From Kiritimatiellaeota bacterium B1221 (GTDB taxonomy: Bacteria > Verrucomicrobiota > Kiritimatiellia > SS1-B-03-39 > UBA6053): DNA of 64,000 nt. The stretch's first letter is position 1. The number at the start of each line of letters is the position of its first letter. Below, in pieces: positions 16,801-37,198 of this stretch. The DNA lies in NCBI GenBank assembly GCA_029269125.1, contig JARHXX010000008.1:62001-126000 (forward strand), given 5' to 3'. The notes beneath the pieces were generated by a model that saw only the letters and a list, made by a program, of their open reading frames with translations, was not told the origin of the DNA and searched no databases. A program made the position numbers and the translations under genes.

Positions 16801-17542
16801 GGGTGATTCGTGTGCCGTGAAACTTTTTTCAAATGCGAATGAGGCCGAAGCCGCCTGGCAGGATGCCGTTTTACGCTTATATAAAATTCAAGAGCGGGAC
16901 CGCATCCGCTATCTGCAAAAACAACTTCCGCTGTCAACTCACCTTCAACTTGAGTTGTCTCTCCTCCCCTCCGTGGGCGAAAACGCGCTGGAGGATTTGG
17001 TGGATGCGGTATGCCGTGAAGCCCTTCAATTACATCATTCCTGCCCCCGGGACGCACAGGACTTTGCCCGCAGAATTGAGAAAGCCCGAGGGGAACTGTT
17101 TGAGATTGCAGGAAAAATCACCGGAAAACTTCAACAGATCTTACAAGACAGAAGCGAAGTGCAAGCACACATAGACCGTCTTCCCGATGGACCTCTCCGC
17201 AGCGATTTGGAACTGCAGGCGGTAACCTTATGGTCACCCGGCTGGTGTGCGGACCCGGTTTGTCTGGAGCGGTACCCTAAATATATCAAAGGAATCGCAC
17301 TGCGCATTTCGCGGGCAAACCAGGGACCGGACAAAGACCGAAAAAAACAGGAGAGTTTGGAACCCGTCCTTGCACGGTTTGCCAAACACTCTCCCGCCTT
17401 GACTTCCGGTCAAGTCCGACAGGCTTTTCTCAAACTCGAAGAACTCCGGCTTTCCTTATTCGCACCCGAATGCAGACCCCATGAAAAAATGAGTCCCCAA
17501 CGGTTCGAGCGCTGGTTGGCAGAAGCGGTGTCTTTAAAATAG
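13886..17542 (+). CDS. hrpA: ATP-dependent RNA helicase, HrpA family (DEAH)
   Basis: HrpA-type helicases unwind RNA and rescue stalled ribosomes. The protein of about 1218 residues has Walker A GDTGSGKTT (about 38-46), motif Ia TQPRRLAA, DEAH in IIDEAHERS, SAT, and motif VI with SARQRRGRCGRTGPG, then the helicase-associated domains and a long DUF3418-type C-terminal region as in E. coli HrpA (1300 residues). No ATG precedes Walker A, so the start is a GTG at 13886 or a TTG at 13850; GTG is preferred. Its end overlaps the convergent exopolysaccharide gene by 9 bases with no terminator between them. Confidence 0.93.
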   Translation: MNSSPLPFEISYPEELPVSQRREEILEAIRENQVVIICGDTGSGKTTQLPKMMAEVMGEAPGRIGVTQPRRLAATSMASRVAEECKVSLGGAVGVQVRFENRTSPQTKIQFMTDGLLLAQLPTDRDWNAYSAFIIDEAHERSLNIDFILGCLKNILPRRPDLKIVISSATLDAERFSTFFHDAPVLQVEGRLYPIQDESLPPEPERDLSIQDRVWESLQHLEREHGDLDTLIFLPGEREIRDCTQKLSGRYQGKAEILPLFARLGAKEQQKVFKGSNRRRIILATNVAETSLTIPGIRAVIDTGQVRIQRFHPQSRIQRLMTEQVSRASARQRRGRCGRTGPGVCLRLYSDEDLDRAGEFQDPEIRRSSLAEVILRMTVLGLPPIQKFPFIDPPKGAAVSEGYRTLFDIGAMTDKRKLTRRGRLLASFNLEPRLARMLEEGHEEKVLPAVIVCAAFLSIQDPRERPADKSEAADRAHGLWKDPESDFAGVLNMWNAVCEASVSRSRRSKFCRQHFLHPRRTEEWLNLVDDLRETCHKHHWQVPKSIGELELLDTEGLHRSILAGIPRSVGEREENQQFRSPGGQIFRVFPASATAKKPPRWIMTFTLMETSQLWARECAKLDPQWIEDVASHLCKYNYERPVWNAKRGFVEAEERVSLGQLTLRAGKRIHYGRIDPAAAREIFIRDGLIPGKIQMQHPSCKKYLKLLGSLENWEKKLRRPGLFLGTETFYHYFNRILPETICTQKDFQNWAAGERWVPGIDDLLEGESLDTQAYPDRIVVNGCKVKLNYHYCPEDPDRDGIHLTVREHDLASLPNELLEWTIPAWLPEKVMALIRSLEKPLRIQCNPVKKCSEDAITWFHQQNFVYSHSLHQALASFLAARLNCILAAPDLHPDSLAPYLKNTLVVLNEDGKKVYQGNSFPGQQELSTQRGPVRSKATDEWMVDSCTSWPEIPIPQTHEIRGRTYWPALCDQGDSCAVKLFSNANEAEAAWQDAVLRLYKIQERDRIRYLQKQLPLSTHLQLELSLLPSVGENALEDLVDAVCREALQLHHSCPRDAQDFARRIEKARGELFEIAGKITGKLQQILQDRSEVQAHIDRLPDGPLRSDLELQAVTLWSPGWCADPVCLERYPKYIKGIALRISRANQGPDKDRKKQESLEPVLARFAKHSPALTSGQVRQAFLKLEELRLSLFAPECRPHEKMSPQRFERWLAEAVSLK

Positions 17543-20500
17543 ATAAACCTTTGAGGGGACTTTCGGACGCGTAACCGAAGGCATTTGCGGTTGAGCTGCT
17601 TCCGTGGTTTCGGGTGCGGGATCAACCACGCCTTCGGCGATCGCCGTCACTTCTTCAGCAGAAGCCGCGGGATCTCCCTCCGTCGTCACCTCAAGTGCGG
17701 CTTCAGATGCCTCTCCCGTTTTCGGGTTCACCACCTCCACCTTTTTCACCCGTGCAGGTGGAGGCGGCGCCAGGCTTTCCAAACTTGGAATAATCGGGGT
17801 TTCAATGTTCGTGAAGTCTACCATTTCAAACGTTTTGGTCTCCCGTTTTCCTGCGGTTAAACTGAGGATACTCCCCAATTCACGCACTTCAGCAATGCCC
17901 CCGTGAGAATCCACCCGGATAACCAAAAGTCCGATTCCTGTACCCACAAGGTCATCCTCCATTTGAGCGAACCATTCTTCATCCGGCATTCGGGGAAAGT
18001 CGAGGGTGAACCCCTCCACTTTACTCGCCTTGGCCAACTCAACCAATTGCTCCACTTTGAGCGTTTTTACCGAACTTGAGCGGATCAGGGGGTAGAGACG
18101 GATTTTATAATACCGGGTCAACAGCCGGACACCGGGTAAGTCAAAATCGATTTCTGATCGAAGATCGCCCTTCACATCCTGGAAAAACCAATTCGGAGAA
18201 AATACCGTTAGTTCGGTACTGTTTCCTTTAAGTTTGTCGACCAGAACTTCATCCACGCCTTCTTCCATAAATCCACGGTATAATCCGATGTTTATCGGCA
18301 AGGGGCCACCTGCCACTTCCCGAACCAACGCTTGGGCCATCCCGAATTGCGGAGACCAGGGTGCCAGACCCCACCAACCCAAATTCATATCTTTGGGGAT
18401 GAGAATCGGCGCGCCGAAAGCCGGACGTCCATCCAGATAACCATAGACCGCTTCCCCCCGCACTTCCAATCGTAATTTAACCCGTTCCAGGGGACGTTCC
18501 CATTTCCGGGTTTCATTGGTAACCACGACATTGTTATGCCAAATTTGCAGGTACAATTGACCGTCCGATTCAAATCCGAAACGAATCATATTCCCTTCAG
18601 AACGACGGGCGTAGAGCCAAAAGAAGCCACGCGCCTGTTCCAGCTCCACTTCCATGAAACCGCTCCCCATGGTATCCGATCCTTTGAGAACCAGAGCCGC
18701 TTCAGTAGTGGTCGGGCTCGCACCAAGGAACAAAGATCCTATTTCTTCCTGACGTGTCGGTCCGTTGGCATTCCACCAGTTGTCCGAGGCACCGCCACGT
18801 TTGAAATTTTCACGCACCACGGTTTCGCGGGGGACCAATAATCTGTACAATTCGCTTTTAGGTCCTTCCTCCATCGCCCGTTCCGTAATCAAATCCATCA
18901 GGTACCAGGATTCAGGCCATTTCAAAAGATCGTAAGATTTAACGGTCCGGGCAAAATGCTCATACATGCCCAAACGCCGGCCTAACCGGTTAATGGTATG
19001 GATATTGTCCATCCGTTCCCGGGAAGTGGAAAGCAGGGGATGCATCAATGCCAACGCCGTGAGGTCATCAGGATTTTGAGTCGCCACTTCCTGAATGCGC
19101 TCTCCGGCCGCCTTGGATTGACCCTGCCGTAAATACAGGCCCGCCTGGGCCAGGCTAATATCGGAATTCTCCGGGAACAGTCGATGATACAGACCCAGTA
19201 ACTGGGCCGCCTCATCCTGTTTGTTCAGGAATTTTTCCAATATAATTGCGGTGTTGAGTACCAAGTCCACCTGACCGGGGTCCAGCTCCAAACTTTTCTT
19301 GTAGTAACTCACTGCCGTAAAGTATTCCTGATTGCGTAAGTACACATCCCCTACCAGTCGCAAAGGCTTTTCATTGTAAGGCTCGACCTCACTCCACCGG
19401 GACCAAACCGAAATCGCATCGTCAAATTCGCCTTCGTTGTAGGCATCAAAACCTTCTTCCCACAAAATGCGACTCCGAACTTCAGTATCCCAAATTTCCT
19501 GGCTGGCATCTCCGCCGGTCAGTTGGAAATATAGCGGATACTCTTCACGGGGGAAATTCGTGGAATCCCACACAACCAACCGGTCATTGGTTTCCTTAAA
19601 ATCCGGGTTGCTTTCCAGAGTCTCATCCGGTGAAGCAATCTTCAAATTTTTCAATCCCTGAAGCAAAGAATTGATGGAATTCGTACTGGCCAGTCCACGG
19701 GGCAAAGAAACAATGAGCTCCAGACCCTGACGTTCCAGCGCTTTACTGGTGTTCTGAATCCAGGTGGTCACCCGGGAGAGGTTGCCCGCCCCCTTCAGCA
19801 ACGAAAGATTGCAGTGCACACCGTCCACGCCCGCATTTTTGGCCCGAAGCGAAAGTTTTTCCGCCGTGGCCATGTCCGTGGCATCAATGCGTTCTACGAT
19901 GATCTCCGGCATCAGCTTCATGTTGTACACATTTGCAAGTTCACGGTAAAAGCCCGGATTCCAGGCCGTCTGTTCGGCCCGTCCCTGATCTCCAAGCTGC
20001 ATCCAGGGAGGAGACAAATGGGTGTAACGGTACCCATTCCGTCCTAACCAGGCAGCCAAATCCGGTAAGCGTGAGGGAATCGGCACCCAAGTCAGCATCC
20101 GATTATAGAAAGGCAACACATCCAACTCCAGCAGGTCAAAGGAGGCATCCCCCATCTGAGGATCCCAAACACTGATACCGAGAATCCCCGGATCCGCTTC
20201 CCCCCGCGTCTGGATAATTTCATCGAAAACGGGTTCACCACCCGTCGTCGCAAAAAACTGATTCCCGCGGAGATACACTTCTAAATGAATGGAGCCATCG
20301 GGTTCCCGACGGTAGCGGGAAGTCCCCAAAGTAAACGGCTCAAGACCTTCATGCTTTTGCCGCAACCAGACTTCCCCTTTGTCACCCAGTCCCAGATAGA
20401 GGAATGACTCCCCATCTTTAGACGCACGTAACAGAAAGCCGACCTGCCCCTTTTCGATTTTGAGTTTAAATTTTCCACGGAAGTCGCGGTATAAATCGGT

Positions 20501-21685
20501 ACCATTCAACCAGACTTTTGAGCCGGTATTGTCCTCAAGCGCATGCAGAGTGGCTGAATCCCCGTTTAATTCGAATCCGCCCCAGTCCACCTGCCATGCC
20601 AAAGGATCCGACATCGCTTCCGCATTGGTGACACCGGATTCACGCGGCCATGCGGATTCCAGCTGTTTTAATAACTCATCAGCGGACCACTCCGGGTTCA
20701 CCAACAGCCGGTTCAACCGCATGGGATCGGATTCATTGGTATTCAATGCCGCATTCCCATGGATGAACGCCATATCATAAAATTCATTTACCAGCGACAT
20801 ATTCAATCGGCGGGTCAACTGGGCGCGTTCGTCATATTGACCGAAGTCCCCATAAGGAAACGCAAAAGCAATGGGGGGCTCTTTGGTTTCTTTGAGAATT
20901 TGTTCATACACAAATTCATGGTCCTCATGAAGCCGTTCCTGATATTCCAAGGGGGTTTCATAACGATTTTCGGACGTGATCCACCGCGGTGAAGTTAAAT
21001 AATTTTTCAGACGACCTTCACGGTCTGCCACGATACGTTCGAACCCGAGATGGCTTTGCGCACCGGCCTCCCAGGCACCGGTACCGATCATGGCACGGAT
21101 ATACGGCCAGCGGAGTGCCGAGGGATCTTCATCCAAAATAGGTTTGGTCCAAACAAACATCACCGCGTGCCACCCTAATTTTTGCAAAATTCTTCGCGCA
21201 TCAAAATAAGAGGATTTACGGGAATGGTCAAAGGTGAGTAGAATTGCGTTTTCAGGCAGAGGCGTGCCTTCCTCGTAAAAGGCTTTGATCTCCTCCAGGG
21301 TGATCGCGTTGTAGCCCTTCTCTTTTAAAAGCTTCATCTGCTCTTCGAAACGCTCAGGTGAAACCTCGGTGGGAATATCAGAAATACCCTCGTAGGAAAT
21401 TGCCACAAATTCCATCGAGTTCCGTTCCCCCACATCTGCGGGCCGGAAAGCCAACATCCGTATCAAAGCATAACGAATCGGAATCCCCCACGCGACAATC
21501 AGACAAACCACCAACAAGAAATACAACCAGGCCTGTTTGTAGTTGGCCTTCATCACCGCGACACGTTCCGGCACCACCGGAGGCTCGCGGCGGAAGGAAC
21601 CCCGACCGTGACTTTCCGTAACGTGGTCGTCATGTGACTCTTCGAAGGAAGATGAATATAAATGTGGATCTTTTTCTGAACTCAT
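17534..21685 (-). CDS. Membrane-anchored PgaB-like protein: NodB-type deacetylase, glycosidase-like, TPR and beta-sandwich regions
   Basis: The 1383 residues run: cytoplasmic tail, one membrane helix (about 50-72), a polysaccharide-deacetylase-like domain (about 90-330), a LamG-like beta-sandwich (about 370-505), a PgaB C-terminal glycosidase-like region (about 530-700, with GVDGVHCNLSLL), TPRs (about 750-900), a second beta-sandwich (about 980-1110) and a Pro/Glu/Ala-rich tail. Motif 1 of the deacetylase reads TFDHS instead of TFDDG, and motif 2 (QSHLGFER) lacks the second histidine, so activity is doubtful; FPYGD is kept. It follows the glycosyltransferase gene with an ATGA overlap. A periplasmic scaffold, polymer-binding or hydrolytic role in exopolysaccharide export is the best inference. 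Confidence 0.75.
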   Translation of the reverse strand: MSSEKDPHLYSSSFEESHDDHVTESHGRGSFRREPPVVPERVAVMKANYKQAWLYFLLVVCLIVAWGIPIRYALIRMLAFRPADVGERNSMEFVAISYEGISDIPTEVSPERFEEQMKLLKEKGYNAITLEEIKAFYEEGTPLPENAILLTFDHSRKSSYFDARRILQKLGWHAVMFVWTKPILDEDPSALRWPYIRAMIGTGAWEAGAQSHLGFERIVADREGRLKNYLTSPRWITSENRYETPLEYQERLHEDHEFVYEQILKETKEPPIAFAFPYGDFGQYDERAQLTRRLNMSLVNEFYDMAFIHGNAALNTNESDPMRLNRLLVNPEWSADELLKQLESAWPRESGVTNAEAMSDPLAWQVDWGGFELNGDSATLHALEDNTGSKVWLNGTDLYRDFRGKFKLKIEKGQVGFLLRASKDGESFLYLGLGDKGEVWLRQKHEGLEPFTLGTSRYRREPDGSIHLEVYLRGNQFFATTGGEPVFDEIIQTRGEADPGILGISVWDPQMGDASFDLLELDVLPFYNRMLTWVPIPSRLPDLAAWLGRNGYRYTHLSPPWMQLGDQGRAEQTAWNPGFYRELANVYNMKLMPEIIVERIDATDMATAEKLSLRAKNAGVDGVHCNLSLLKGAGNLSRVTTWIQNTSKALERQGLELIVSLPRGLASTNSINSLLQGLKNLKIASPDETLESNPDFKETNDRLVVWDSTNFPREEYPLYFQLTGGDASQEIWDTEVRSRILWEEGFDAYNEGEFDDAISVWSRWSEVEPYNEKPLRLVGDVYLRNQEYFTAVSYYKKSLELDPGQVDLVLNTAIILEKFLNKQDEAAQLLGLYHRLFPENSDISLAQAGLYLRQGQSKAAGERIQEVATQNPDDLTALALMHPLLSTSRERMDNIHTINRLGRRLGMYEHFARTVKSYDLLKWPESWYLMDLITERAMEEGPKSELYRLLVPRETVVRENFKRGGASDNWWNANGPTRQEEIGSLFLGASPTTTEAALVLKGSDTMGSGFMEVELEQARGFFWLYARRSEGNMIRFGFESDGQLYLQIWHNNVVVTNETRKWERPLERVKLRLEVRGEAVYGYLDGRPAFGAPILIPKDMNLGWWGLAPWSPQFGMAQALVREVAGGPLPINIGLYRGFMEEGVDEVLVDKLKGNSTELTVFSPNWFFQDVKGDLRSEIDFDLPGVRLLTRYYKIRLYPLIRSSSVKTLKVEQLVELAKASKVEGFTLDFPRMPDEEWFAQMEDDLVGTGIGLLVIRVDSHGGIAEVRELGSILSLTAGKRETKTFEMVDFTNIETPIIPSLESLAPPPPARVKKVEVVNPKTGEASEAALEVTTEGDPAASAEEVTAIAEGVVDPAPETTEAAQPQMPSVTRPKVPSKVYLF

Positions 21686-23139
21686 GATTGTGCTCCCCGG
21701 GTACCCCAGCTACGGGTGGCCAATGTAATTAGCGCGTAATAAATCTGCCAACTGAAGAAAAGAATATAAGTGGCGGTAAACACAAATCCTGCCCACCAAT
21801 GGGTACGACCTGTTTTTTGCAAATGGTAAAGAGACCAGATCAAGGTTACCGCAAATACACCGAAAATGTAGGACCCGGTAATTGCGCCTTGTTTAATGGG
21901 ATTCAAAATCAACGCCTGAATCATAATCAAGGGTTCCACAATAGGTAAAATCATCATCAGGTACCACGACAGGGCCGGCACCGGGTGCTTCTTCCAAAGA
22001 AATTTTGAACCGGCAATAATCCCCCGAATCGAAGAACGCATCCAACGGGCCTGCTGACGGATATACACCCGCCAGCTTTCCGGAGCAATCGTGGTGGCAA
22101 GCGCTTCATCATCATAAAGAATCTGATAATCCTGCAACACCAGGTTGGTGAGACTCCGGTCATCTCCGTAGTTTCCTTCCTGGCCAAACACTTTTTCATG
22201 CATCCACTCATTCAATACATGCAATACGCAGGCACGCCGGTAGGCGGAAAAACAGCCCGGTAGACAACTCACCGTCCCGTGCACACTCTCCGCCGCTTTC
22301 ATAATCTTGTATGAAAAGAAATATCGAACGTCCTGCATTTTGGTCAGTACATTCGCTTTGGCATTGTCCACGTCAGTATGACCGGCAATTCCCCCTACCG
22401 TGGGATCCACAAATCCCTGCACCAATTTTTCTACCGCACCCGGCATAAGAAAGGTATCGGAATCCACAAACACCATGATTTCACCATGTGCCAACAGAGA
22501 GGAAACCGCCATTCCATAACAGAGACCACGGTTCTCTTCGAAATCCACCACCACCAAACGCGGAAAGGCGGCCTGGGCACGATACATTTCCAACAGCGTA
22601 TTGTCCGTAGACCCGTCATTCACACAAATAACTTCCCGCAAGTGATCCGGATAACCTTCGGAATAAATTCGGGCAATCGACCGTGCAATCGACTCCTCCT
22701 CGTTCATGCAGGGAACCAACACACTCACCTGCGGGGTGAATCCTACCCGGGGCGGCGGTGTATAAAAAGAAGCCAGAATAAAACGGGATACAATGAACAA
22801 CCCTACAATGAAGGAATAAATATTCACCACAGGCGAATAATAATAATGTTCAATATTGATGATCTGAAAGTAAACCGCAAATGCGAGAATCATGGTACCA
22901 ATCAGCCCCAGCCCCAAAACCAGCCACCGGGGGGGACGACGGTACAGCGACTTGATATGCGCCTCCACATCTTCTTCGACCTCCACCTTTTCCGGTTCGG
23001 GCATTTGAATGGGCGTATGACGCAACGCGTCGTGGCAAAAGGGACACACCACAGGTGAAGAGGATTCTAAAACCTGCACGCTAATTTTACATTTGGCACA
23101 GCGTGAACGTGTACCGGTCTTGGGGGGGGAGGCAGTCAT
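21682..23139 (-). CDS. Family 2 glycosyltransferase (PgaC/hyaluronan-synthase type) with N-terminal zinc ribbon
   Basis: This 485-residue membrane enzyme is the probable polymerase of the locus, making and secreting a beta-linked polysaccharide. It shows membrane helices at about 72-92 and 105-125, a GT-A domain with SVLVPCMNEEESI, VNDGSTDNT, DSDT (about 228-231), a GDDRSLTN acceptor motif and QQARWMRSS (QxxRW, about 360), then four more helices. This order matches PgaC/IcaA/NodC. Unusual is the N-terminal four-cysteine ribbon (CAKC and CPFC, residues about 14-35), not typical of PgaC. Substrate sugar is probably UDP-GlcNAc by analogy only. ATGA overlaps join it to both neighbours. Confidence 0.88.
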   Translation of the reverse strand: MTASPPKTGTRSRCAKCKISVQVLESSSPVVCPFCHDALRHTPIQMPEPEKVEVEEDVEAHIKSLYRRPPRWLVLGLGLIGTMILAFAVYFQIINIEHYYYSPVVNIYSFIVGLFIVSRFILASFYTPPPRVGFTPQVSVLVPCMNEEESIARSIARIYSEGYPDHLREVICVNDGSTDNTLLEMYRAQAAFPRLVVVDFEENRGLCYGMAVSSLLAHGEIMVFVDSDTFLMPGAVEKLVQGFVDPTVGGIAGHTDVDNAKANVLTKMQDVRYFFSYKIMKAAESVHGTVSCLPGCFSAYRRACVLHVLNEWMHEKVFGQEGNYGDDRSLTNLVLQDYQILYDDEALATTIAPESWRVYIRQQARWMRSSIRGIIAGSKFLWKKHPVPALSWYLMMILPIVEPLIMIQALILNPIKQGAITGSYIFGVFAVTLIWSLYHLQKTGRTHWWAGFVFTATYILFFSWQIYYALITLATRSWGTRGAQS

Positions 23140-25529
23140 CGCTTTTCCATTTCCGGGGTGTTATCAAGATAAATCACAGTGTCGGGTCCTGCGTCTTCAA
23201 AAAGGGTTGGAGAGAGGCGGCTCGCATATTCCAGGGACAAAGTTTTCACCCGCCGGGGACCGGCAAAGACGCCGATATTTCCACAAAGCTCGCGAAAGGA
23301 GGCTTTTCCTGTTTTGTTGTCCAATAAAATAAAATGCAGGGTGATACCGGATTTCATCACCATCCTTTGCGCTTGTTCCAGCCATTCAGGTTCAGGCATC
23401 CGTTCCACCAGTAAAGTAAATCCGTCCAGGCGCTGCTCCAATGCAATTTTTCCCAGCGCCTCTAGATCGAGTGCCCGGTAAGAACGTACCCGGAGCATGG
23501 GCAAAAGCCGCATCCGATAATATCGGGACATTAAACGCAATTCCTCATCTTCTTCAAACTTCAGACGGGTCAAATCTCCGCGGTCATCCTGCGTGAACCA
23601 CTCGGGGGCAAGCGTGGATAGCTCCGAGGCCAATCCTGTTAATTTTTGGGACAGGCCCCCGACCTTGTTCTCGGAGGGTCTGCTTAATTCCTCATGGGGA
23701 ATCAGCCCCAAACGAACCGGTAACGGGCCGCCGGACACTTTACTCACGGTTACACTCGCCGTTCCCAGTTTTGCCGACCAGGGCGCAATCCCCCACCAGC
23801 CCAAGCCCATACTTTCGGGAATGGTTACCGGCGAACTGAAAGCTTTTTCCCCATTGATGTACCCCATGGCGCCATCACCCTGTAATTCCAAACGAAGCAC
23901 CGCATCCCCGGGTAAACGGGACCAAATGCGGGTTTGATTATTGATCAGGCGGTCATTCATCCACACCTGCAAATACAGCTGTCCATTGTCCGCAAATCCG
24001 AATCGAACCATATTCCCCTGTCCACGACGGGCATACATCCAAAAGTAACCCTGGGAATCATCGATCCACGCCTCCACAAATCCGTTGTGCATGGAATCAG
24101 AGCGTTTTAAGCGAAGGAAGGCTTCGGCCTGTGTCGCATCCGCACTCAGGACCATGCTCCCCCCTTCCTCGAAAACTTCCTGGTGTGAAGAAATCCAATT
24201 GCTCGACAAACGGCCAATACGGAAGTCTTCCACCGTAATAGTATCCCGCGGCAAGAGGCTCTCAAACAGGATCCGCTGCTCGGCGGAAGGCGACTCGCCC
24301 GCCATGCGGTAAATGAAATCCATCAGCACCCAGGATTCCGGACGGGTCAATAAACCATCATCCTTGATCGTATATCCCAAACTCGCTTCCCGCCCCGGCA
24401 GCTGCCCCACTTCAAGCATTCTGAGCATATTCGCATATCTCTCATCCTGATCCCGTAACAGGGGATGCATAATACTCATCGCCTTCAGGTTTTCAGGATC
24501 CATTTCCACCACGGTCTCAATAATTTCCACCGCTTCTTCATAACGGTTTCGGCGGATCAACCATTCGGCTTGAGTCAGCGCCACCCCGCTTGAGGTCGGA
24601 AAAAGCCGCGCAAAATGATTCAGCATTTCTTTGGCCGCTTCCGAATCACCCATCTTCACATCCAGCAAACTGGAAAGACGGGACATCAGCCCAATTTGAC
24701 CCGGCTGCAATTCCAAACTTTTCCGATAGTAGGAAACCGCATTCTCTAAATCTTCCGTGCGTAAATAAAGGTCACCCACCAATGCCACGGGCCGGGGATT
24801 CCGGGGCTCTAAATTGACCCACTGATTCCATGCCTCCAAAGCTTCATCATACTGCCCGGCATCAAATGCATCCCGCCCCTGTTTATTCAAAAGCTGACTT
24901 TGCAATGCCGTATTCCGCACTTCGTTGGTCGTTTGTTGCAGGGACAACTCATAATAAAGTGCCAGCTCAATATCCTGATCCGGGGTGAATTCCGTATTGA
25001 GAACTTCTTCCCGGGACTCCACACAATTTAACGCAATCGAAACCCCGCTAAAAGCCCGGTACGCATGCACCATCAAAAACCAACGACCCGCCCCGGGATC
25101 TTCCAACTGTATCTCTTCAATGTTTCCATTCACATACGGACGGTACTGATACGAGTGAAGTCCGGGAACCTCTCCCTGACTTAAATACATATCCGCATCC
25201 CCCTGCCCCCCCGACATGGCAAGCCCCAGCCGAATCAGTTTGTCCCCCACTTCCAGCGGAATGACGATGCGGGCTCCTGCAGGCGCAGACAAATTTTCCA
25301 GTTGTTGACCGCATTCGAGAATATCCGGATAGGTGAAAATTTCCGTTCCCTGAATTTTATACTGGCGGGCCTCGTCTTGGTCCATCCAGCTTTTAACCTT
25401 CACCGGCTCGGATGGAGGCTCCAAAATCCGCCCCGTGTCTCCCGCTCCGGGAGGGGGGGACTGCGCCAATAAAGAAGTTCCCGCTGCAATTAACAAGCCT
25501 GCAGACATCCGTTGTACATATTTGTTCAT
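23136..25529 (-). CDS. Secreted TPR and beta-sandwich protein of the exopolysaccharide locus
   Basis: The 797-residue protein has a signal peptide (about 1-22), a PPC-like beta domain (about 50-165), TPRs (about 195-375), a LamG-like beta-sandwich (about 440-590) and a C-terminal domain. From the TPRs to the end it is a clear paralogue of the C-terminal half of the 1383-residue PgaB-like protein: both have FW(L/M)YARR, GNM(I/V)RFGF, GQLYLQ(I/V)W, LGWWG(L/I)APWS and GGPLP in the same order. No catalytic motif is recognised. It probably binds polysaccharide or scaffolds the export complex in the periplasm. Overlapping ATGA junctions join it to the GT2 and GHL10 genes. Confidence 0.72.
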   Translation of the reverse strand: MNKYVQRMSAGLLIAAGTSLLAQSPPPGAGDTGRILEPPSEPVKVKSWMDQDEARQYKIQGTEIFTYPDILECGQQLENLSAPAGARIVIPLEVGDKLIRLGLAMSGGQGDADMYLSQGEVPGLHSYQYRPYVNGNIEEIQLEDPGAGRWFLMVHAYRAFSGVSIALNCVESREEVLNTEFTPDQDIELALYYELSLQQTTNEVRNTALQSQLLNKQGRDAFDAGQYDEALEAWNQWVNLEPRNPRPVALVGDLYLRTEDLENAVSYYRKSLELQPGQIGLMSRLSSLLDVKMGDSEAAKEMLNHFARLFPTSSGVALTQAEWLIRRNRYEEAVEIIETVVEMDPENLKAMSIMHPLLRDQDERYANMLRMLEVGQLPGREASLGYTIKDDGLLTRPESWVLMDFIYRMAGESPSAEQRILFESLLPRDTITVEDFRIGRLSSNWISSHQEVFEEGGSMVLSADATQAEAFLRLKRSDSMHNGFVEAWIDDSQGYFWMYARRGQGNMVRFGFADNGQLYLQVWMNDRLINNQTRIWSRLPGDAVLRLELQGDGAMGYINGEKAFSSPVTIPESMGLGWWGIAPWSAKLGTASVTVSKVSGGPLPVRLGLIPHEELSRPSENKVGGLSQKLTGLASELSTLAPEWFTQDDRGDLTRLKFEEDEELRLMSRYYRMRLLPMLRVRSYRALDLEALGKIALEQRLDGFTLLVERMPEPEWLEQAQRMVMKSGITLHFILLDNKTGKASFRELCGNIGVFAGPRRVKTLSLEYASRLSPTLFEDAGPDTVIYLDNTPEMEKR

Positions 25530-27799
25530 TTCTTTTCCCGGGGGCTGTATGCCTTACTTAAAACTGGAGCCAACTCACTCGCAAAAGAGGGGTTCAACTG
25601 AAAGAGGACAAAACCGTTTGCCCCCAATTCCGACGCCGCAGAGATTTGGGTTAAAACCTGTCTGGGACTTAAGCGGCTTTCCGATGAATCCACACCAATA
25701 CCCACCATAAGCTTTGCTGAATGGCCAACAAGCTTTCGTTGCGTCACGATCCATTTTTTAAAATTTTTCACGTTTTCGGTATAGTTCATAACTACAATAA
25801 AGTCGAGTAAACCTTTTTGATTCCAATGCGTCCAATTTTGTCCAATACGTTTTTGTGACACCTCAAGCGAAGGCCAAACCGCCGCCGATAAGTAAATATC
25901 AGGAAAAACATCCTTCATTACAGTTGATACCTTTTCTACAAACAGATCAATTTGCAAGGCCTGCCACTCTAAAAATGCCGGGTGTTGCGGCCCTCCCCGC
26001 AGGGCTGCGGGCCAATCGACCTTTTTTCCCAGGCTCTTTTGAAAGGCATCTTTACACGCCGCACAGGCACAGGGCTTGCTGTCCTGCCAGCGGACATAAT
26101 CCAAATGAACCCCCCGAATACCATCGGTCTCTGCCAATACGAGAATTCTCCGGATTTCGGATTCCACGTTTTCCGGACGCGAAGGACACAGCCAGGGCAT
26201 CGCCTCTCCTGTTTCTGAGATTTGCAACAAATCTTCCCGCGCATATCGGCGCAGGGTGGCAGGAGAATGTTCAGGCAATGACCAGCAGATATGCCAGGCA
26301 TGCACCGCAACCCGCCCTTCGGCCGCCCGCAGGACCCGAATCGGATTGCCACGGTTTCTCGGCACATACACAAACAAGTCCGTTATACCTGCATTTTCCA
26401 AAATCTCCACAGTCGTCTCCCAGTTTTCCGACGCCAGCCCCTGACCACTCGCATCCCATATCCCCCGCATCTCAAATGCCGGTGCCTCAAAATTTTCCGC
26501 GTTAGCCACATCCGCCTGACGGTTCATCTCAATAAACTGATCCCAGGCCAGAAAAGGATGCCCCGCATCTAAAGCGGTTTCAATTTCGGACAGCTGCCTT
26601 GCCGTTTGGGGGTTCACCTCCCCCGGAGAAACCGTCAAACGAAAACGGGATACCCGACGTTTTACCGCCGTCTCCGCGACATGCATTTCGGGCAGCAATT
26701 CATCCAGCAGGCCCGCAAGCAGTTGACGTTGCTCAGGGCTGTCATCCTGAGGCAGCACCGTCGAAACCCAGAGGGCCCGGTCAGAACGGACAATTGCGGA
26801 CTCTTTTTGGCGACGGCCGGAACGGTCCACCCATTCCGCTAAAACCGCAGCCCGATCTCCGGGCGAAACCGGTAGAATATTTCGGGTGGGCATCCGTACC
26901 CGGGCCGGCCCCTGCCAGGATGCATCCGTAAATTTCACTGCATTCCACTTCTGCTCCGAATTCGAACTTAAATACCGGCGAAGTGAAAATCCGCAACTTT
27001 CCGCCAGTTCCGGGGATGCGGAATAAAAGACCATGACCTTTCCTCCATCCTCCATGTATCTGGCCAGGGATTGTAACAGGGCCGGAGAAGGATACGCATT
27101 ATAAGGAAGAATCACACAATCAAATGCTTGTAAATCCGCAGAGGAAGCCTTGGCATCACTCAACCTCCGGGTCGCAATCCCCATTTCACTTAACTGCCGG
27201 GCCATCCAGGCGGCACGTTCAACTCCAAAGGCCTGCTCCGAAGGATTTAAAGAACTTGCGGCATCCGGGTCCACCACCAAAATGGGACTCTTCACCGCCG
27301 CAAGGCCATACCATTGAAATGCGCCCTCTCCCGCCTCACCTTTCCAGGGGGAAAGCCGAACACCATCCACCGCTTCCCAACCTTGCGGCTGATCAATTTC
27401 CTCAAAATTTTCAAACGGGAGAAATACAGATTGCAGACCTTCTTTCACGGGAAGATAGCTCGCATACCATCCCGCACCGCTTTTGAGATACAAAGTCACG
27501 GCGCGCATGGACTGCAGATTTTCCAGGCGGTAGGTGATCCACAACCCATCCCGCTCCGTCCAATTCTCAGACAGGGATAAATCCCAGTAAACACGATCCG
27601 TGTTGCCATCAAAGACACAGGGAAAGCGCAATCCAATCCCCGTCTGAACCGCTAACGGACTTTCCGGAGAAGCTTTCCAGACGGAAGCATCAAGGGTCAA
27701 ATCATCCGCGAAGAGGAAAAAACCCAGAAAAAATGTGAGGAAGACCGTCGAAATGAATTCGAACCGCTTATTCCCACATGTATTTTTCTTGATCTTCAT
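25526..27799 (-). CDS. GHL10-like secreted glycoside hydrolase
   Basis: This protein of about 757 residues starts at MKIKKNTCG with a signal peptide (FISTVFLTFFLGFFLFA). An N-terminal beta-rich, carbohydrate-binding-like region (about 25-155) is followed by a ThuA/GATase-like segment (about 160-260: ILVVDPDAA, VILPYNAY, DGGKVMVFY). The C-terminal 320 residues match the GHL10 hydrolase-like TIM barrel, with MRGIWDASGQG, GIRGVHLDYVRW and VVMNYTEN. Families of this type are thought to act on polysaccharides and PgaB carries a relative. It may trim or process the polymer. An upstream in-frame ATG at 27832 is possible. The start overlaps the small membrane protein gene. Confidence 0.74.
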   Translation of the reverse strand: MKIKKNTCGNKRFEFISTVFLTFFLGFFLFADDLTLDASVWKASPESPLAVQTGIGLRFPCVFDGNTDRVYWDLSLSENWTERDGLWITYRLENLQSMRAVTLYLKSGAGWYASYLPVKEGLQSVFLPFENFEEIDQPQGWEAVDGVRLSPWKGEAGEGAFQWYGLAAVKSPILVVDPDAASSLNPSEQAFGVERAAWMARQLSEMGIATRRLSDAKASSADLQAFDCVILPYNAYPSPALLQSLARYMEDGGKVMVFYSASPELAESCGFSLRRYLSSNSEQKWNAVKFTDASWQGPARVRMPTRNILPVSPGDRAAVLAEWVDRSGRRQKESAIVRSDRALWVSTVLPQDDSPEQRQLLAGLLDELLPEMHVAETAVKRRVSRFRLTVSPGEVNPQTARQLSEIETALDAGHPFLAWDQFIEMNRQADVANAENFEAPAFEMRGIWDASGQGLASENWETTVEILENAGITDLFVYVPRNRGNPIRVLRAAEGRVAVHAWHICWSLPEHSPATLRRYAREDLLQISETGEAMPWLCPSRPENVESEIRRILVLAETDGIRGVHLDYVRWQDSKPCACAACKDAFQKSLGKKVDWPAALRGGPQHPAFLEWQALQIDLFVEKVSTVMKDVFPDIYLSAAVWPSLEVSQKRIGQNWTHWNQKGLLDFIVVMNYTENVKNFKKWIVTQRKLVGHSAKLMVGIGVDSSESRLSPRQVLTQISAASELGANGFVLFQLNPSFASELAPVLSKAYSPREKK

Positions 27800-28244
27800 C
27801 CGAAGATACATCCACCTGCTGATCCAAACCATCGGGTCTCACCTTTCGGAAGAGAACCGGCTGATCAGACTTCTTCGGATTCACAAGATCTTCAGGAGGG
27901 GTAGAAGATTTTGCCACCGGAGCCGGACGGGGAGTCGAGCTGCTTCTGCTGGAGCTCTTCGGCGAAGTGGAAGCCCGGGGAGAAGAAGCACGTGGAGAAG
28001 ATTTATGCGGCGGAACCGAGGACCGGGCAGGATGCGTAGAGCGGCCCGGGCGGTGAGACTTGGCCGGACGAAACTGCATGGACTGATCTTGACGCTGGGA
28101 TTTTTCAAGCTCCTGCATGTGCCGCTTCCGCGTACGGGAATTGGTGTAGGCACCCAAGCCAAAAATTAAAGCGAGCACCGTGGCAATGACACCGGTTACA
28201 CCAAGGAAGTCTGTATTAATTATTTGTGCGAGTGAAAGATACAT
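27768..28244 (-). CDS. Small membrane protein with disordered basic tail, function unknown
   Basis: The 158-residue protein has one N-terminal membrane helix (about 14-33, VTGVIATVLALIFGLGAY), then a basic Ser/Pro/Arg-rich tail (about 35-130) that is surely disordered. The composition of the tail resembles that of the KaiC-like ATPase encoded divergently. AAAGGGA just before the ATG is a good ribosome site. It is the first gene of the exopolysaccharide operon and overlaps the GHL10 gene. I do not recognise it; an assembly or regulatory subunit is possible. Confidence 0.6.
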   Translation of the reverse strand: MYLSLAQIINTDFLGVTGVIATVLALIFGLGAYTNSRTRKRHMQELEKSQRQDQSMQFRPAKSHRPGRSTHPARSSVPPHKSSPRASSPRASTSPKSSSRSSSTPRPAPVAKSSTPPEDLVNPKKSDQPVLFRKVRPDGLDQQVDVSSDEDQEKYMWE

Positions 28245-28427
28245 GGTCCCTTTAAATGAGTTGTTATTTTATTAGGTCAAAACGAAATCGTAAAAAAGTT
28301 TGAGCTTGATGGACATATAGTACGAGCATTACAAATGATTCAAACAAAATCTATGTTTATCATTGCGTAGCCAATGAGTAACAGTAGTACTTATAAGTGT
28401 TGTCACAAGCTAAAAACCAAAACATCC

Positions 28428-29845: not shown

Positions 29846-29865
29846 ACCTTTCGCACGGAAAACTT

Positions 29866-30832: not shown

Positions 30833-33800
30833 TCAGAAACGATACAGAATACTTCCGATCACATTGTGTTCGGTGTAAGCCTTGGTTGCATTCACCAGGA
30901 AAGAACCATTGACCTCAAGTCCCCAATCGAAAGTCTTGCTGATATTCGCTGAGAAACCAAGCAATTTGTTCCAGCCCTCATCCGGGCCTTCACCCGCGGA
31001 AAATCCGCCTTGTTCCGCCGCAGTCACCTGAAGATTTAAATACTGCTGCACATCTTCATCACGCGCCTTTTCTTTCTGAAACCCGAGGTGACCCCGCAAA
31101 GAGGTGGTGAGCCCCGGATAACTCCGGCGAATTTCCATAATCGCAAAATGCCGTTGTTCCCAATAGGGCGTCCAATATAAATCAGAAGCCTCATCCGTGG
31201 TACTGATTGAATGATGCAGTCCGGCCCAGAAATCCAACTTTTCAGAAATCATCCAAAGATTTTCCAGTTCCCCGTTCACGAAAGAGTTATTGTCATCGTA
31301 AAACGAGAAGGAACCCACTGCGGTCGCCTGCCAATAATCCGTAACCCGCCATATCGGACGGAAAGCCAACTGATCATAAGACACCAACTCAATTGCGGAG
31401 GGGACCACGCCGTGGTTAAACGCAGCGGTAAAATCCATATTAGGGAAAGGGCGCCACTGATGCTCCACCCCGTAGGTGACCTCCTCCTCCTTTTCCGCAC
31501 CATTGCGTTTCGGATCCAACGTGAATAATCCTCCACGGAAGATGGTGAAAGCGCCGGTATCATGAATGTAACTAATCAACCCTTCCTGACGTGAGAAGTC
31601 TGCTTCATAATCCAGAGTGTTCACAACATTGGATTGGAAACTGACATTGTTTGAAAAAGAGCTGCTTTCCTTAATTTGGAAATTTTGACCGTTGATCACC
31701 TGGTTAAAGGTCCGGCTGGCAGAACCCACCTGTGTCGTGGAAAGTTCGATCACCTGGTTTGTGGGACTGTTAAAGCTCTGCTCAATCTTACCTTCGGATG
31801 CCCGGATTTGTAAGGTGATTCTCCGATTCAGATTGATCCCTGCAAACACCCCGATTTCCTCTTCGTCAATCAGTTCATTGGAACGGACCGTCCGGCCGTC
31901 TGCACCAATATAGAGATCTTCGAGCTCAATGTAATCCGATTTTTCACGTCGCTTGTCACCCGCGGCCGTATCCTCTACCGCATCCGGCAAACGAACCAGA
32001 CTGGCCAAGTGACGGTCCACATATTTTGTCAGTTCCCGCAGATCCTCTTCAGGATATCCGTCGCGGCGCAAGAGTTCCACATTTTCCATGGCCATTTCAT
32101 AACGTCCATGCAATGCGGCAATCTCCGCACGCATTCTGCGTGCCACAAACACCGGATGCTGCAAATAGGCCTGACGTAATACATAGCGGCCGGAGGCATG
32201 CCGATAAGGCTCAAAACGTTTGTACATTAAAGGATTGTCTCCTTTCACCGCATATCCGAACCGATTCTGTAAAAATCCTTGATCATAGGCAATTTCAGAT
32301 TCATTCAAAATCACATTGGTCACATCAAACAAATCAATATTCGTGGTGTTCTCCTGACCAATTTCACCGTAGGGATAAGCCACAGAATTGATTTCCTTCA
32401 ACGGAATATCCAGTTCCATCGCCAATACTCTCCGGGATTCGGAAAATTCTTTGCGCAGGCGATCCTGATATTCCTTCAGGGTTTCCATTCTTTCCTTTTC
32501 CTTTAACCAAATCCGGTTCGGAAGCGGTAGACGCATTTTCTTTTCGTCTTCATCAATCGCAGCCAACTGGCCGGCATCCCACAGATGACTTTGAATTTCC
32601 CAGCGTCCGGTTGCGAAATATTCCCGGATTTCAGGGAAGTGTGCCACATAACGCTGCATACGGGACAATACATCCCCCACTCCGACAAACATGGTGAATT
32701 GAGTGTCAATTTCATCCGCAACCATGGTGCCGTAACGGAAAGAGTTCCGGAGACCGTCATCAAAAGTTACAATCACTTTCTTTTCCGGTGAAAAATCACT
32801 CAGTACTTCCGTATCCTCTTCTTTTTCCGCAGTCCACGAATACTTCACAGACTGCACCATGCGGTTTAACCAGGGCCGGTCCAGCTCCGCGGGAGGCGGC
32901 TCTTCACTTTCATCAAAATAGGCGGGCAGTTCGGAAACCGTCATGAACTCAAATCCGTCACGACGCAAGGCCATCACATGCTCACGCAATTGGCGGACCG
33001 AAGGCATGTCTGAAAACTCACTGGGAGAAATACCATGATACAACAAGGTAAATACGGCACCGCGCGCCCCTTCCCGTTCTAATCGTTCCAGCGCCTTCAT
33101 GGCCAATTGGAAATCACCGCGGGCAAAATGGATCCGTGCCCAATACACATGCCGGAAAGGATTCTCTCCGTTAAACAAACGAAGATTTTCCACCAACTGA
33201 TCTTCCGCCTCATCCACCATGGAACGTCCCAAAAAGGTTTCCATTTTTCCGTAACGGGCACGATCATTATGCGGATTTAAATTTTCGAGAATGAAATCAA
33301 ATACATCCGCAGCCGCGGCAAATTCTTTTCCGCCCACCAAAGCTTCGGCATAAAACAATGCGGACCCCACATTGTTTCGATCCAAATCCCAAGTGTCTTT
33401 CCCCGCGGCAATCACTTGATCACGACTGAACACAGCCGGATTTTCAGCAAAAACCGCATTCATGAAGACCGCGATTTGCTGCGACACCTGAATTTTATTT
33501 TCGATATCCTCAACGTTATTCTGCAATTCTCTCAAGCGGGAAATGGTTTCACGCGGACGGTTATTGCGAACCGATAATGCGATCAAAATATTCATCGCCT
33601 GCAAATTTTTCGGCTCCACTTCCAACGCGGCATAAGCATCCGCTTCCGCTTCCGGCAACATCCCCATCAACAGATACACATTCGCCCGGGCAATCAAAAA
33701 TCCGGCATGGCCGGGGATGACTTCCAAAATTTCATTCCAATGTTCGAGACTTTCCTCGTACTGCTCATTGCCGTACAAACTCCACGCCAAATCAATCTGA

Positions 33801-34678
33801 ATATCTGTACGTTCCGGATCTTCCGCAAACAGTCTGGAGAAATGTGTGATCGCTTTTTCACGCTCGCCCCCCCACAACAATACCTGCGCCAAGCTCACCC
33901 GAATTTCAAACTGAGAGGGGTTCAGCTCCAAACTTTTCTTATACAGTTCACGCGCTTTTTCGAATTCCGCATCCCGGGTCGCCACCTGCCCCATCAAATT
34001 GTAGCCCATGGGCTCGTTGGGAGCGATTTCAACCAGACGGGTCCATAATTCAATCGCTTCATCTTCACGATCCGTCAGCCAATACGCCCAACCCAAGGTT
34101 TCCCAGGCACCCAGCAAAGCCGGATCCTGCTCTAATACCCACTCTAATTTCGGAATGGCTTCCTCATATTTTTCATCCTGCACATTCACCATGGCTTCAT
34201 ACATGGTTTTCCGGGCAGTCGAAACATTAATGGCATCCTCCACCACTGAAGGCTCTTCTTTCTCCACAACTTCTTCAAGCGCTTCTTCCGCCTCCACCAC
34301 TTCCCCGTCCACCACCTTGATTTCTTCAATCACAGGTTCTTCTGCCACGGGTACTTCAACCACGGGTTCCTCAATGACCGTCTCCACAGCCTCTTCAACC
34401 ACAACCTCTTTTTCCGCCTTCTTTTCATCGGCCGCTTTCACGGGTTTTTCTTCAACCACAATCTCTTGCACCCCGATCGCAACCGGTTCAGGCTCTTCTT
34501 CGACGGCTACCAACTGTAAATCAACAGACTCCAAGATCGCAACTTTCTCTTCCCTGTCCTCAATCGGCTTGCTGACGTTTCCGTTTCCAACCTCAACAAT
34601 TTGTGCGGTCAGCGGAAGCATCCATCCTACACCCGAAAGACATAGGAGACGAAAGAGAAAATGTGATTTGGATTTCAT
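30833..34678 (-). CDS. Fusion of TPR, NodB-type deacetylase and C-terminal outer-membrane barrel (PgaA/PgaB-like)
   Basis: The 1281 residues run: signal peptide (about 1-26), a Glu/Val-rich low-complexity stretch (about 30-150), a long TPR region (about 155-490), a polysaccharide deacetylase domain (about 630-860) and a strand-rich C-terminus (about 920-1281) ending SILYRF, as outer-membrane barrels do. Deacetylase motif 1 is intact (VTFDDG, about 636-641) and YPYGE is present, but motif 2 reads SHLWDAG with no second histidine five residues on. In E. coli TPR-barrel PgaA and deacetylase PgaB are separate proteins. Here export and modification appear joined. It closes the MBOAT/SGNH operon. 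Confidence 0.82.
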   Translation of the reverse strand: MKSKSHFLFRLLCLSGVGWMLPLTAQIVEVGNGNVSKPIEDREEKVAILESVDLQLVAVEEEPEPVAIGVQEIVVEEKPVKAADEKKAEKEVVVEEAVETVIEEPVVEVPVAEEPVIEEIKVVDGEVVEAEEALEEVVEKEEPSVVEDAINVSTARKTMYEAMVNVQDEKYEEAIPKLEWVLEQDPALLGAWETLGWAYWLTDREDEAIELWTRLVEIAPNEPMGYNLMGQVATRDAEFEKARELYKKSLELNPSQFEIRVSLAQVLLWGGEREKAITHFSRLFAEDPERTDIQIDLAWSLYGNEQYEESLEHWNEILEVIPGHAGFLIARANVYLLMGMLPEAEADAYAALEVEPKNLQAMNILIALSVRNNRPRETISRLRELQNNVEDIENKIQVSQQIAVFMNAVFAENPAVFSRDQVIAAGKDTWDLDRNNVGSALFYAEALVGGKEFAAAADVFDFILENLNPHNDRARYGKMETFLGRSMVDEAEDQLVENLRLFNGENPFRHVYWARIHFARGDFQLAMKALERLEREGARGAVFTLLYHGISPSEFSDMPSVRQLREHVMALRRDGFEFMTVSELPAYFDESEEPPPAELDRPWLNRMVQSVKYSWTAEKEEDTEVLSDFSPEKKVIVTFDDGLRNSFRYGTMVADEIDTQFTMFVGVGDVLSRMQRYVAHFPEIREYFATGRWEIQSHLWDAGQLAAIDEDEKKMRLPLPNRIWLKEKERMETLKEYQDRLRKEFSESRRVLAMELDIPLKEINSVAYPYGEIGQENTTNIDLFDVTNVILNESEIAYDQGFLQNRFGYAVKGDNPLMYKRFEPYRHASGRYVLRQAYLQHPVFVARRMRAEIAALHGRYEMAMENVELLRRDGYPEEDLRELTKYVDRHLASLVRLPDAVEDTAAGDKRREKSDYIELEDLYIGADGRTVRSNELIDEEEIGVFAGINLNRRITLQIRASEGKIEQSFNSPTNQVIELSTTQVGSASRTFNQVINGQNFQIKESSSFSNNVSFQSNVVNTLDYEADFSRQEGLISYIHDTGAFTIFRGGLFTLDPKRNGAEKEEEVTYGVEHQWRPFPNMDFTAAFNHGVVPSAIELVSYDQLAFRPIWRVTDYWQATAVGSFSFYDDNNSFVNGELENLWMISEKLDFWAGLHHSISTTDEASDLYWTPYWEQRHFAIMEIRRSYPGLTTSLRGHLGFQKEKARDEDVQQYLNLQVTAAEQGGFSAGEGPDEGWNKLLGFSANISKTFDWGLEVNGSFLVNATKAYTEHNVIGSILYRF

Positions 34679-34696
34679 AAGATCATTCCAAGTGGA

Positions 34697-35383
34697 TTAT
34701 TTATACAGGGCCTTATCGACGGCTTCCGCCACCCGATCAGCTCCTGCACGGCTTAAATGTACACCATCACTGGCACGCAATTGAATCATTTTTCCCTGCG
34801 GGCTGATAATATTGGCGGAATACGTATCTTTTTTACGTCCGAGAAGATTCCTTGTGGGGAAAAATGTGACCGCATCGCGTTTATCGGCTTCAATTTTAGC
34901 CAAGCGGTTCACAATATCGACATTGGCAGTAATGTCACTGTCTCTCATCACAGGCAGCTCCAACCAAATCACCTTCCCGCCTTTGCTTGAAAGTTTGTCC
35001 AGTACCTCACCAATGCGGCGGGCATACTCGTCTTCCCAGTTGGGGTCCGCAATGTTCACAATTCCCGTTGCCGTTTTCATTGCCTGACGGTCGTTGGTGC
35101 CAAACCATACAACAGACATATCCGGATTAAATTCCGCAACCAATCCGTCGATTTTTTCCATCCAGTCATATGCATCTAGACGCGCAAGCCCTGAACCCAA
35201 AGAGGTTTGAGATTTGGTGGTCACTTCAGGATGCTTGTCCAAAGCCAATGTCAAAGCATGTGCCGTCACCCGCATCATGGAATCGCCCACAATAAGCACA
35301 CGCTCAGGTTTGTCCGCTGCACCGGCATGAAGACCCAGACCGATAAGACCGCTCAGTAATACAATTTTAAAATAATTCTTCAT
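34697..35383 (-). CDS. Secreted SGNH-hydrolase-like protein, putative polysaccharide O-acetyl transfer or esterase
   Basis: The 228-residue protein has a signal peptide (LSGLIGLGLHAGAA) and the SGNH blocks GDSMMR (about 32-37), FGTND (about 93-97) and the catalytic DGVHLS near the C-terminus. This layout resembles DUF459-type and AlgJ/AlgX-like partners of MBOAT O-acyltransferases. It lies 8 bases after a small membrane protein gene and near an MBOAT gene, which supports a role in O-acetylation of the locus polysaccharide in the periplasm. It could instead be a deacetylating esterase. Confidence 0.83.
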   Translation of the reverse strand: MKNYFKIVLLSGLIGLGLHAGAADKPERVLIVGDSMMRVTAHALTLALDKHPEVTTKSQTSLGSGLARLDAYDWMEKIDGLVAEFNPDMSVVWFGTNDRQAMKTATGIVNIADPNWEDEYARRIGEVLDKLSSKGGKVIWLELPVMRDSDITANVDIVNRLAKIEADKRDAVTFFPTRNLLGRKKDTYSANIISPQGKMIQLRASDGVHLSRAGADRVAEAVDKALYK

Positions 35384-35391
35384 AAATTTTC

Positions 35392-35661: not shown

Positions 35662-35708
35662 AATGTACGTATAGTGCGTGTGACTCAGGCAAAAAGAAAA
35701 AAATCGTG

Positions 35709-37157
35709 TTAAAACTGGAAATATATGAATGGTGCGACGCCTTTAGGGCCCAATCCTAACACCGCGACAAACAATACTGCAGCCAACACCCCCTGCGCGA
35801 CAGGATGCATCCGCTCAAATTTGTTCCAAAGCTTTTCACAGCGGGATCCATCCAGTAATTGCGCCAAATACCCCACCCCTATCACAAAAACCACACTCCA
35901 GGTGAGCAACTCCACCGGCATGTCCCAGTTCCCCAGGGTCTTTAACATCCCCCAGGCATGCCCGAAACTCTGTCCCCGGAAAAACAGCCAGGAAAGACAA
36001 ACCAAGTGCCAAACCGCCACCCGGCGGAGCACCCCCGCCACCGGCCCGTCCCATTGTATATTCCGGGCAGCCAAAAATTTTCCTCCCCACCTTTCAACCG
36101 TCAAATAGATACCATGCAGAGCCCCCCAGGCAATAAACGTCCAGCCCGCCCCGTGCCAAAGCCCTCCCAATAGAAATGTAATCATCAAATTCCGGGCCAC
36201 CGTTCCCTCGCCTTTTCCCCGTGAGCCCCCCAACGGAATATACAGATAATCCCGCAAAAACGATGACAATGAAATGTGCCAGCGGCGCCAAAACTTCTGA
36301 ATGGAATCCGCCAGGTAGGGTGCATCAAAATTAATCGGGATATGGAACCCCATCAATAAACAAAAACCGATCGCCATGTCAGAATATGCAGAAAAATCAC
36401 AATAAATCTGAATGGCATATCCGTAAATAGCAAACAGAGTATCTGCGGCCCCGTAGAATTCGGGATTGGCAAACACCGGATCGACAATCCGCTCGGAAAG
36501 AAAATTCGCGATCACGACTTTCTTAAACAATCCACCCAAAATCAGCGCGGTCGCCCGCCCCACATCCAGGGTTGCAGGAACCCTGGGTTTCGCCAGCTGC
36601 CCGACCAAATCGATCGCTCTCACAATCGGTCCCGCCACCAACTGCGGAAAAAAGGCCAGATATAAGGCAAAATCCAATAACGAATCCGCCGTTTTCATCC
36701 GTCCCCGATAAACATCGAATACGTAACTCATGGCCTGAAAAGTGAAAAAGGAAATCCCCACCGGCAATACAATCAAACTGACAAAATCAGATCCGTCCAT
36801 CCAGAAATTGTAATTGGAAATCGCTCCTAACTTATTTCCCACCCAAAAAACCTGATCAAACAGGAAATTTGCATATTTAAAGAACGCGATACTCCCGATA
36901 TTCAAAATGACCGCAATTACCAGTAACGCTTTTCGGGTATGCGGATTTTTTGATCGTTCAATCCCCACCGCACTAAAATGGTTCAATAAACTCGATCCCC
37001 CCAATAATCCCAAAAAACGCCAGTCCCAATATCCGTAAAAAAACCAGCTCGCTGACAACATGACCCATTTCCATACCGTCACCTGCTTGCGCAACGCCCA
37101 GCAAAGCGAAAAAACGAGCAGAAAAAAGAGTGCAAAATCAATGGAGGTGAAATTCAT
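35709..37157 (-). CDS. MBOAT-family O-acyltransferase (AlgI-like)
   Basis: The 482-residue polytopic membrane protein has about ten hydrophobic helices. It keeps the PIVRA and QIYCDFSAYSDMAIG segments and the catalytic-histidine motif LGGLWHGAGW (about 330-340), all typical of AlgI/DltB/PatA enzymes that move acyl groups across the membrane to polysaccharides. The ATG at 37157 is preferred over a TTG two codons upstream. It is followed by the small membrane and SGNH genes, the usual partners for alginate or cellulose acetylation. Probable donor is acetyl-CoA; the acceptor is the exopolysaccharide of this locus. It lies 41 bases after folC. Confidence 0.93.
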   Translation of the reverse strand: MNFTSIDFALFFLLVFSLCWALRKQVTVWKWVMLSASWFFYGYWDWRFLGLLGGSSLLNHFSAVGIERSKNPHTRKALLVIAVILNIGSIAFFKYANFLFDQVFWVGNKLGAISNYNFWMDGSDFVSLIVLPVGISFFTFQAMSYVFDVYRGRMKTADSLLDFALYLAFFPQLVAGPIVRAIDLVGQLAKPRVPATLDVGRATALILGGLFKKVVIANFLSERIVDPVFANPEFYGAADTLFAIYGYAIQIYCDFSAYSDMAIGFCLLMGFHIPINFDAPYLADSIQKFWRRWHISLSSFLRDYLYIPLGGSRGKGEGTVARNLMITFLLGGLWHGAGWTFIAWGALHGIYLTVERWGGKFLAARNIQWDGPVAGVLRRVAVWHLVCLSWLFFRGQSFGHAWGMLKTLGNWDMPVELLTWSVVFVIGVGYLAQLLDGSRCEKLWNKFERMHPVAQGVLAAVLFVAVLGLGPKGVAPFIYFQF

Positions 37158-37198
37158 AGGCAACTCTTATAGATACCCTGCAAGACTTGTCAATCCTA

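Follow-up and report, generated by a model that had tools for sequence, protein, structure and literature searches.

Does a single protein in this locus join the export of a polysaccharide to its modification, and if so, is the modifying domain still an enzyme? The window, a 64,000-nucleotide stretch of contig JARHXX010000008.1 from Kiritimatiellaeota bacterium B1221, contains gene A, whose product the initial annotation read as a TPR region, a NodB-type deacetylase and an outer-membrane barrel in one chain. Pfam matches, profile searches, AF2 and Foldseek models, and homologues throughout the class all bear this reading out. We propose, with a probability of about 0.72, that the gene A product exports an exopolysaccharide through the outer membrane in a synthase-dependent system, with a PgaB-type domain built in between the TPRs and the barrel; gene A is most likely a covalent PgaA-PgaB-like exporter. 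The single chain, its three folds, its conservation in the class, the synteny and the states of the active-site residues were obtained by computation. The domain order is signal peptide, Glu/Val-rich linker, TPR, PgaB-type (NodB2) deacetylase domain and outer-membrane beta-barrel, with the following coordinates in the window.

30833..34678, minus strand: gene A, the exporter gene, 1281 aa from ATG to stop (open reading frame and translation, families, AF2, Foldseek)
34601..34678, minus strand: signal peptide, residues about 1-26 (read from the sequence, without a predictor)
34229..34600, minus strand: Glu/Val-rich linker, residues 27-150, 28% E and 24% V (composition across homologues; dN/dS)
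33059..34219, minus strand: TPR superhelix, residues about 154-540 (Pfam TPR models; helices 13-398 of the AF2 model)
32009..33058, minus strand: PgaB-type (NodB2) deacetylase domain, residues about 541-890 (hmmsearch to PgaB/IcaB structures; Foldseek)
32753..32767, minus strand: TFDDG motif, residues 638-642, with D640 the base and D641 a metal ligand (motif reading)
32570..32590, minus strand: motif 2, SHLWDAG, in which H698 corresponds to PgaB H184 and G703 replaces PgaB H189, so that a metal ligand is lost (alignment to E. coli PgaB)
30836..31921, minus strand: predicted 18-strand outer-membrane beta-barrel, residues 920-1281, final residue Phe (AF2; Foldseek; Pfam OMP_b-brl in homologues)

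An assembly or frame artefact is ruled out as the source of the fusion because many independent genomes have the identical single-chain order. The fusion is a class-wide conserved architecture and no local accident. Long homologues are present in four further genomes of the family to which the window's genome belongs, and in a fifth the homologue is interrupted by a stop. A query composed of the deacetylase and barrel parts found matches in 79 of 288 sampled Kiritimatiellia genomes, representing 47 of 113 genera. Among 388 sampled genomes of the phylum, 42 had a match and 40 of these were from Kiritimatiellia; the other two had weak matches to the deacetylase part only. Sought in Verrucomicrobiota genomes, as the initial annotation suggested, the domain order is found there, mainly in the class Kiritimatiellia: 66 of the 71 distinct proteins with TPR and deacetylase parts also carry the barrel. 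A motif-limited scan of 84,980 species gave 52 loci, mostly titled Kiritimatiellae, Lentisphaerae, Verrucomicrobia, PVC group or uncultured bacterium. Several genomes have tandem copies of gene A.

The two ends of the protein resemble those of known polysaccharide exporters. Numerous Pfam TPR models score above their cut-offs over about residues 154-350, and the AF2 model, made from residues 142-1281 and 44 aligned family members (mean pLDDT 87.8, pTM 0.76), has helical repeats spanning about residues 154-539. The C-terminal part of the same model has 18 strands, with one helix between strands 15 and 16. Foldseek searches with the whole chain were dominated by TPR proteins and uninformative on the barrel, and therefore the barrel was modelled and searched alone. 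It again had 18 strands (pLDDT 89.4), so that residues 920-1281 are modelled as a barrel and not as some other fold. The proposed strand-rich C terminus ending in Phe also holds, with Phe the last residue in 61 of 70 barrel-bearing rows. Pfam OMP_b-brl matched 10 of 44 homologues. Among solved structures, Foldseek ranked BcsC first, fourth and seventh, PgaA third (4y25, TMt 0.70) and PelB tenth. Against these pores the TM-scores reach moderate values (0.54-0.56 when normalised by query length, with rmsd 7.6-12.5), and hits to general porins are close behind in the same E-value range. The barrels of PgaA and BcsC have 16 strands, in contrast to the 18 in our model. We consider it well supported that the C-terminal part forms a beta-barrel, and its probable role as an exopolysaccharide pore rests on the Foldseek rank plus genomic context. 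The predicted layout, with N-terminal periplasmic TPRs and a C-terminal outer-membrane barrel, is that of PgaA. An even number of strands would put both ends of the barrel in the periplasm and, with them, the deacetylase domain.

By profile search, the domain between the TPRs and the barrel is of the PNAG type. Pfam PF01522 matches residues 631-775 barely above its cut-off (24.2 vs 23.1 bits), and the family profile matches the PNAG deacetylases 4wcj, 4u10, 5bu6, 3vus and 4f9d (hmmsearch, E 2e-13 to 5e-9). The fold matches those of 3vus (TMt 0.73) and 4u10 (TMt 0.76). The features of NodB2 enzymes are present: motif 5 at the N terminus, TFDD, and AYPYG, which is motif 3 of PNAG-type NodB2 enzymes (PMC10967932). 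The profile search led us to reject a generic NodB enzyme, and the domain is PgaB-like by both profile and fold rather than a member of an unrelated family. Gene A does not reach the cut-off of the curated PgaB model TIGR03938 (21.9 of 321.9 bits). The genome has 15 PF01522 matches in all. Near the locus, a match besides that in gene A is in a 634-aa open reading frame about 7 kb before the window (G000:C133:54710-55018).

Is this domain an active enzyme? The TFDDG motif that was initially called intact is present, but the active site is not complete. In an alignment with E. coli PgaB, D114, D115 and H184 have counterparts and H189 has become Gly703; the Asp-His-His metal triad is represented by D641 and H698. 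Close relatives have Gly or Ser at this position. PgaB H189 belongs to the nickel site (PMC7112194), and replacing either metal histidine of PelA by alanine eliminated its esterase activity (PMC12022489). Because of the lost histidine, the role of H189 in PgaB and the inactivity of the PelA mutants, the gene A copy is more likely non-catalytic, and its domain more likely binds or guides the polymer than deacetylates it. These considerations make it improbable that here too the fused domain deacetylates as a metal-dependent enzyme, with another residue or a water replacing the histidine and deacetylation coupled to export. In favour of such an enzyme are the retention of D640, D641, H698, the N-terminal motif-5 His (LLYH) and AYPYG, the purifying selection on the domain (dN/dS 0.03) and the existence of fused copies whose site is complete (22 of 74); the Gly or Ser in the window protein and its close relatives speaks against it. 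Hence the idea of a single-chain exporter-modifier that couples deacetylation to export survives as a description of the architecture, and active deacetylation by this protein does not find support as originally stated.

The state of the site varies in the family. The residues D-D-H-H are complete in 32 of 85 rows (22 of 74 barrel-bearing, 8 of 8 barrel-less, and 2 that are cut by contig ends), and the site changes state 13 times on the family tree. The difference between barrel-less and fused rows (8/8 vs 22/74) has a Fisher p of 1.6e-4 with kinship ignored, the barrel-less rows being one clade, which also includes one row truncated at a contig end. Where family members have all four catalytic and metal residues, as the homologue L051:2440-6327 does, the domain probably removes acetyl groups from the polymer as it passes. 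We tentatively speculate that, in this class-wide polysaccharide exporter, the deacetylase was fused ancestrally and that many lineages have retained it as a non-catalytic guide for the polymer, catalysis having passed in some of them to a paralogue without a barrel, although we think this account somewhat doubtful. If it is true, the exporter-bound enzyme domain would exist in two forms within one family, one catalytic and one guiding.

Tandem copies have more than one arrangement. In some arrays (L111:3383-12040, L105:6188-12031 and L133:1136-7481), one or two barrel-less TPR-deacetylase copies are followed by a full exporter copy; D-D-H-H was retained in every barrel-less copy examined. Tandem pairs in L074, L075 and L129 have one copy with a degenerate site (DGLH) and another with D-D-H-H or D-D-H-S. 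A 1676-aa open reading frame (L150:2044-7074, minus strand), a long-branch outlier, has two PgaB-like deacetylase matches and a barrel.

The genes around gene A are those expected of a synthase-dependent export system: a membrane GT2, a TPR-barrel exporter and a modification enzyme are encoded together. The locus consists of two minus-strand blocks in the window (30833-37163 and 17534-27832) with three plus-strand genes between them.

34697..35383, minus strand: SGNH/DUF459 protein, PatB-like O-acetyltransferase (Pfam, NCBIfam PatB, PDB 8gr2/8tlb, motifs, synteny)
35709..37163, minus strand: MBOAT acyltransferase, DltB-like (Pfam, NCBIfam, synteny)
21682..23139, minus strand: membrane GT2 polysaccharide synthase with a QQARW motif (Pfam, NCBIfam, PDB, motif)
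17534..21685, minus strand: D2, with a degenerate PgaB-like domain (TFDHS), a GHL-like middle and TPRs (NCBIfam PgaB, PDB 3vus, synteny)
23136..25529, minus strand: TPR2, a 797-aa TPR protein, paralogue of the C-terminal part of D2 (Pfam; matches overlapping D2_C in homologues)
25526..27832, minus strand: GHL10-like glycoside-hydrolase-type protein (PF02638 above cut-off)

Gene A follows 18 bases after the SGNH gene, whose product has GDS and DGVH motifs. In many genomes gene A occurs together with SGNH/PatB-like, MBOAT, GT2 and D2 genes. Among the 54 gene A copies with at least 3 kb upstream, tandem copies included, 33 have an SGNH gene on the same strand no more than 1 kb away (21 have none so near) and 33 have an MBOAT gene within 4.5 kb; counts for GT2 and D2 are limited by contig ends. 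TPR2, GHL and D2 do not invariably adjoin gene A. D2 is likely an inner-membrane-anchored protein, with 91.4 bits to the PgaB model (again below 321.9) and a match to 3vus. It is unlikely to be the active deacetylase of the locus, its metal site being degenerate in homologues with readable motifs. The sites of both gene A and D2 are incomplete, and therefore the locus as read is without a complete enzyme of the PgaB type. The plus-strand genes between the blocks (28374-30711) encode a response regulator, a KaiC-like ATPase and an ExeA-like AAA ATPase, possible regulators.

Which polymer might be exported? The initial annotation viewed the locus against PNAG systems, and a PNAG system as such is not supported. 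The GT2 scores 155 bits to NodC vs 124 to PgaC in NCBIfam, both under the curated cut-offs (422.3 bits for PgaC, TIGR03937), and no PgaABC model exceeds its cut-off at the locus. The nearest solved structure to the GT2 by phmmer is hyaluronan synthase. Its motif, QQARWMRSS, fits the pattern QQxRWxRS, which is also found in 17 other GT2s examined, whereas E. coli PgaC has QRLRWAQGG. These similarities raise the possibility that a chitin-like or hyaluronan-like polymer is exported and that the resemblance to PgaB reflects the GlcNAc unit only. We put this just short of an even bet: every score is under the curated cut-offs, and two PgaB-like proteins in the locus favour a PNAG-like polymer. With no curated model at its cut-off, we call the product only an amino-sugar polymer and do not name it PNAG.

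We infer export, the nature of the polymer, the order of the steps and activity from these features together. The GT2 synthase would build the amino-sugar polymer and move it over the inner membrane; the polymer may receive O-acetyl groups from the MBOAT/SGNH pair. The TPRs of the gene A protein would then take up the polymer, which would pass the PgaB-type cleft and exit via the barrel. It is far less probable that the exporter carries another cargo (protein or lipid) and that the MBOAT/PatB pair and the deacetylase modify peptidoglycan or the cell wall. As such a role would predict, PatB, which O-acetylates peptidoglycan, is the closest relation of the SGNH protein, and DltB that of the MBOAT; however, the best matches of the barrel are polysaccharide pores, the deacetylase is of the PNAG type and the locus has a processive-type GT2. 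Pairs of MBOAT and PatB/AlgX-type proteins for O-acetylation resemble the pair found here, the same protein types adjoining a polymer exporter.

Known systems bring exporter and modification enzyme together as separate partners. PgaB binds the TPR domain of PgaA (PMC5933820), and PelA binds the TPR domain of PelB; modification enzymes of the Pga, Pel and alginate systems bind exporter TPRs (PMC12022489). According to a citation in PMC13366581, the deacetylase activity of PgaB increases 2.7-fold on binding to PgaA. In these systems the PgaB-type domain is held on the exporter TPRs non-covalently, whereas in the gene A protein the connection would be covalent. Like gene A, PgaA has TPRs and a barrel, PgaB has the same type of deacetylase fold, and the two meet in the periplasm. 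In contrast, they are two proteins, and PgaB, in which the metal site is complete, also contains a hydrolase domain of its own. Gene A scores 27.9 of 366.65 bits against the PgaA model TIGR03939, over the TPR part only, and no PgaD was found in the locus. PelB, one of the best fold matches of the barrel, is likewise a TPR-barrel exporter, and a deacetylase works on its TPRs (PMC12022489), although the chains are separate and PelA is of carbohydrate-esterase family CE21; neither PelC nor other pel genes were recognised in the locus. Among solved structures, the gene A barrel is closest in fold to BcsC. An operon survey describes a fusion of a periplasmic hydrolase to a pore, BcsZC in Zymomonas, and in its available text a PgaA-PgaB fusion is unreported (PMC7112194). 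The BcsZC enzyme is a cellulase and the report concerns Zymomonas, whereas the gene A fusion occurs across much of a class. Our literature search for a PgaA-PgaB-like fusion found no report; a paper on Pontiella exopolymers, in its available text, describes another locus (PMC7356697).

The partners are usually separate proteins; a natural covalent fusion bears on how synthase-dependent systems coordinate exporter and modifier, since it fixes their stoichiometry and order. The fusion also places all parts in one chain for structural work, and comparison of natural variants of the site and of paralogues without a barrel makes it possible to ask whether the domain serves catalysis or polymer guiding. 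Gene A would also provide a handle on exopolysaccharide export in Kiritimatiellia.

Each folded part of the gene A protein is under purifying selection. Compared with a 92%-identical relative (L039), dN/dS is 0.040 for the TPRs, 0.031 for the deacetylase domain and 0.011 for the barrel, vs 0.186 for the linker. The deacetylase domain is thus maintained by selection, whatever its function. The Glu/Val-rich linker of about 120 residues, which had been singled out as unusual, does not merit that attention: it is present only in the window species and its nearest relative, other homologues having short, Ala/Pro-rich or other linkers. We reject it as a functional element since it is unconserved and fast-evolving. 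Elsewhere in the window, translations of 49134-49955, 51394-53058, 54338-55231, 61135-62817 and 63114-63959 have protein ends like PEP-CTERM sorting signals (PEPS...).
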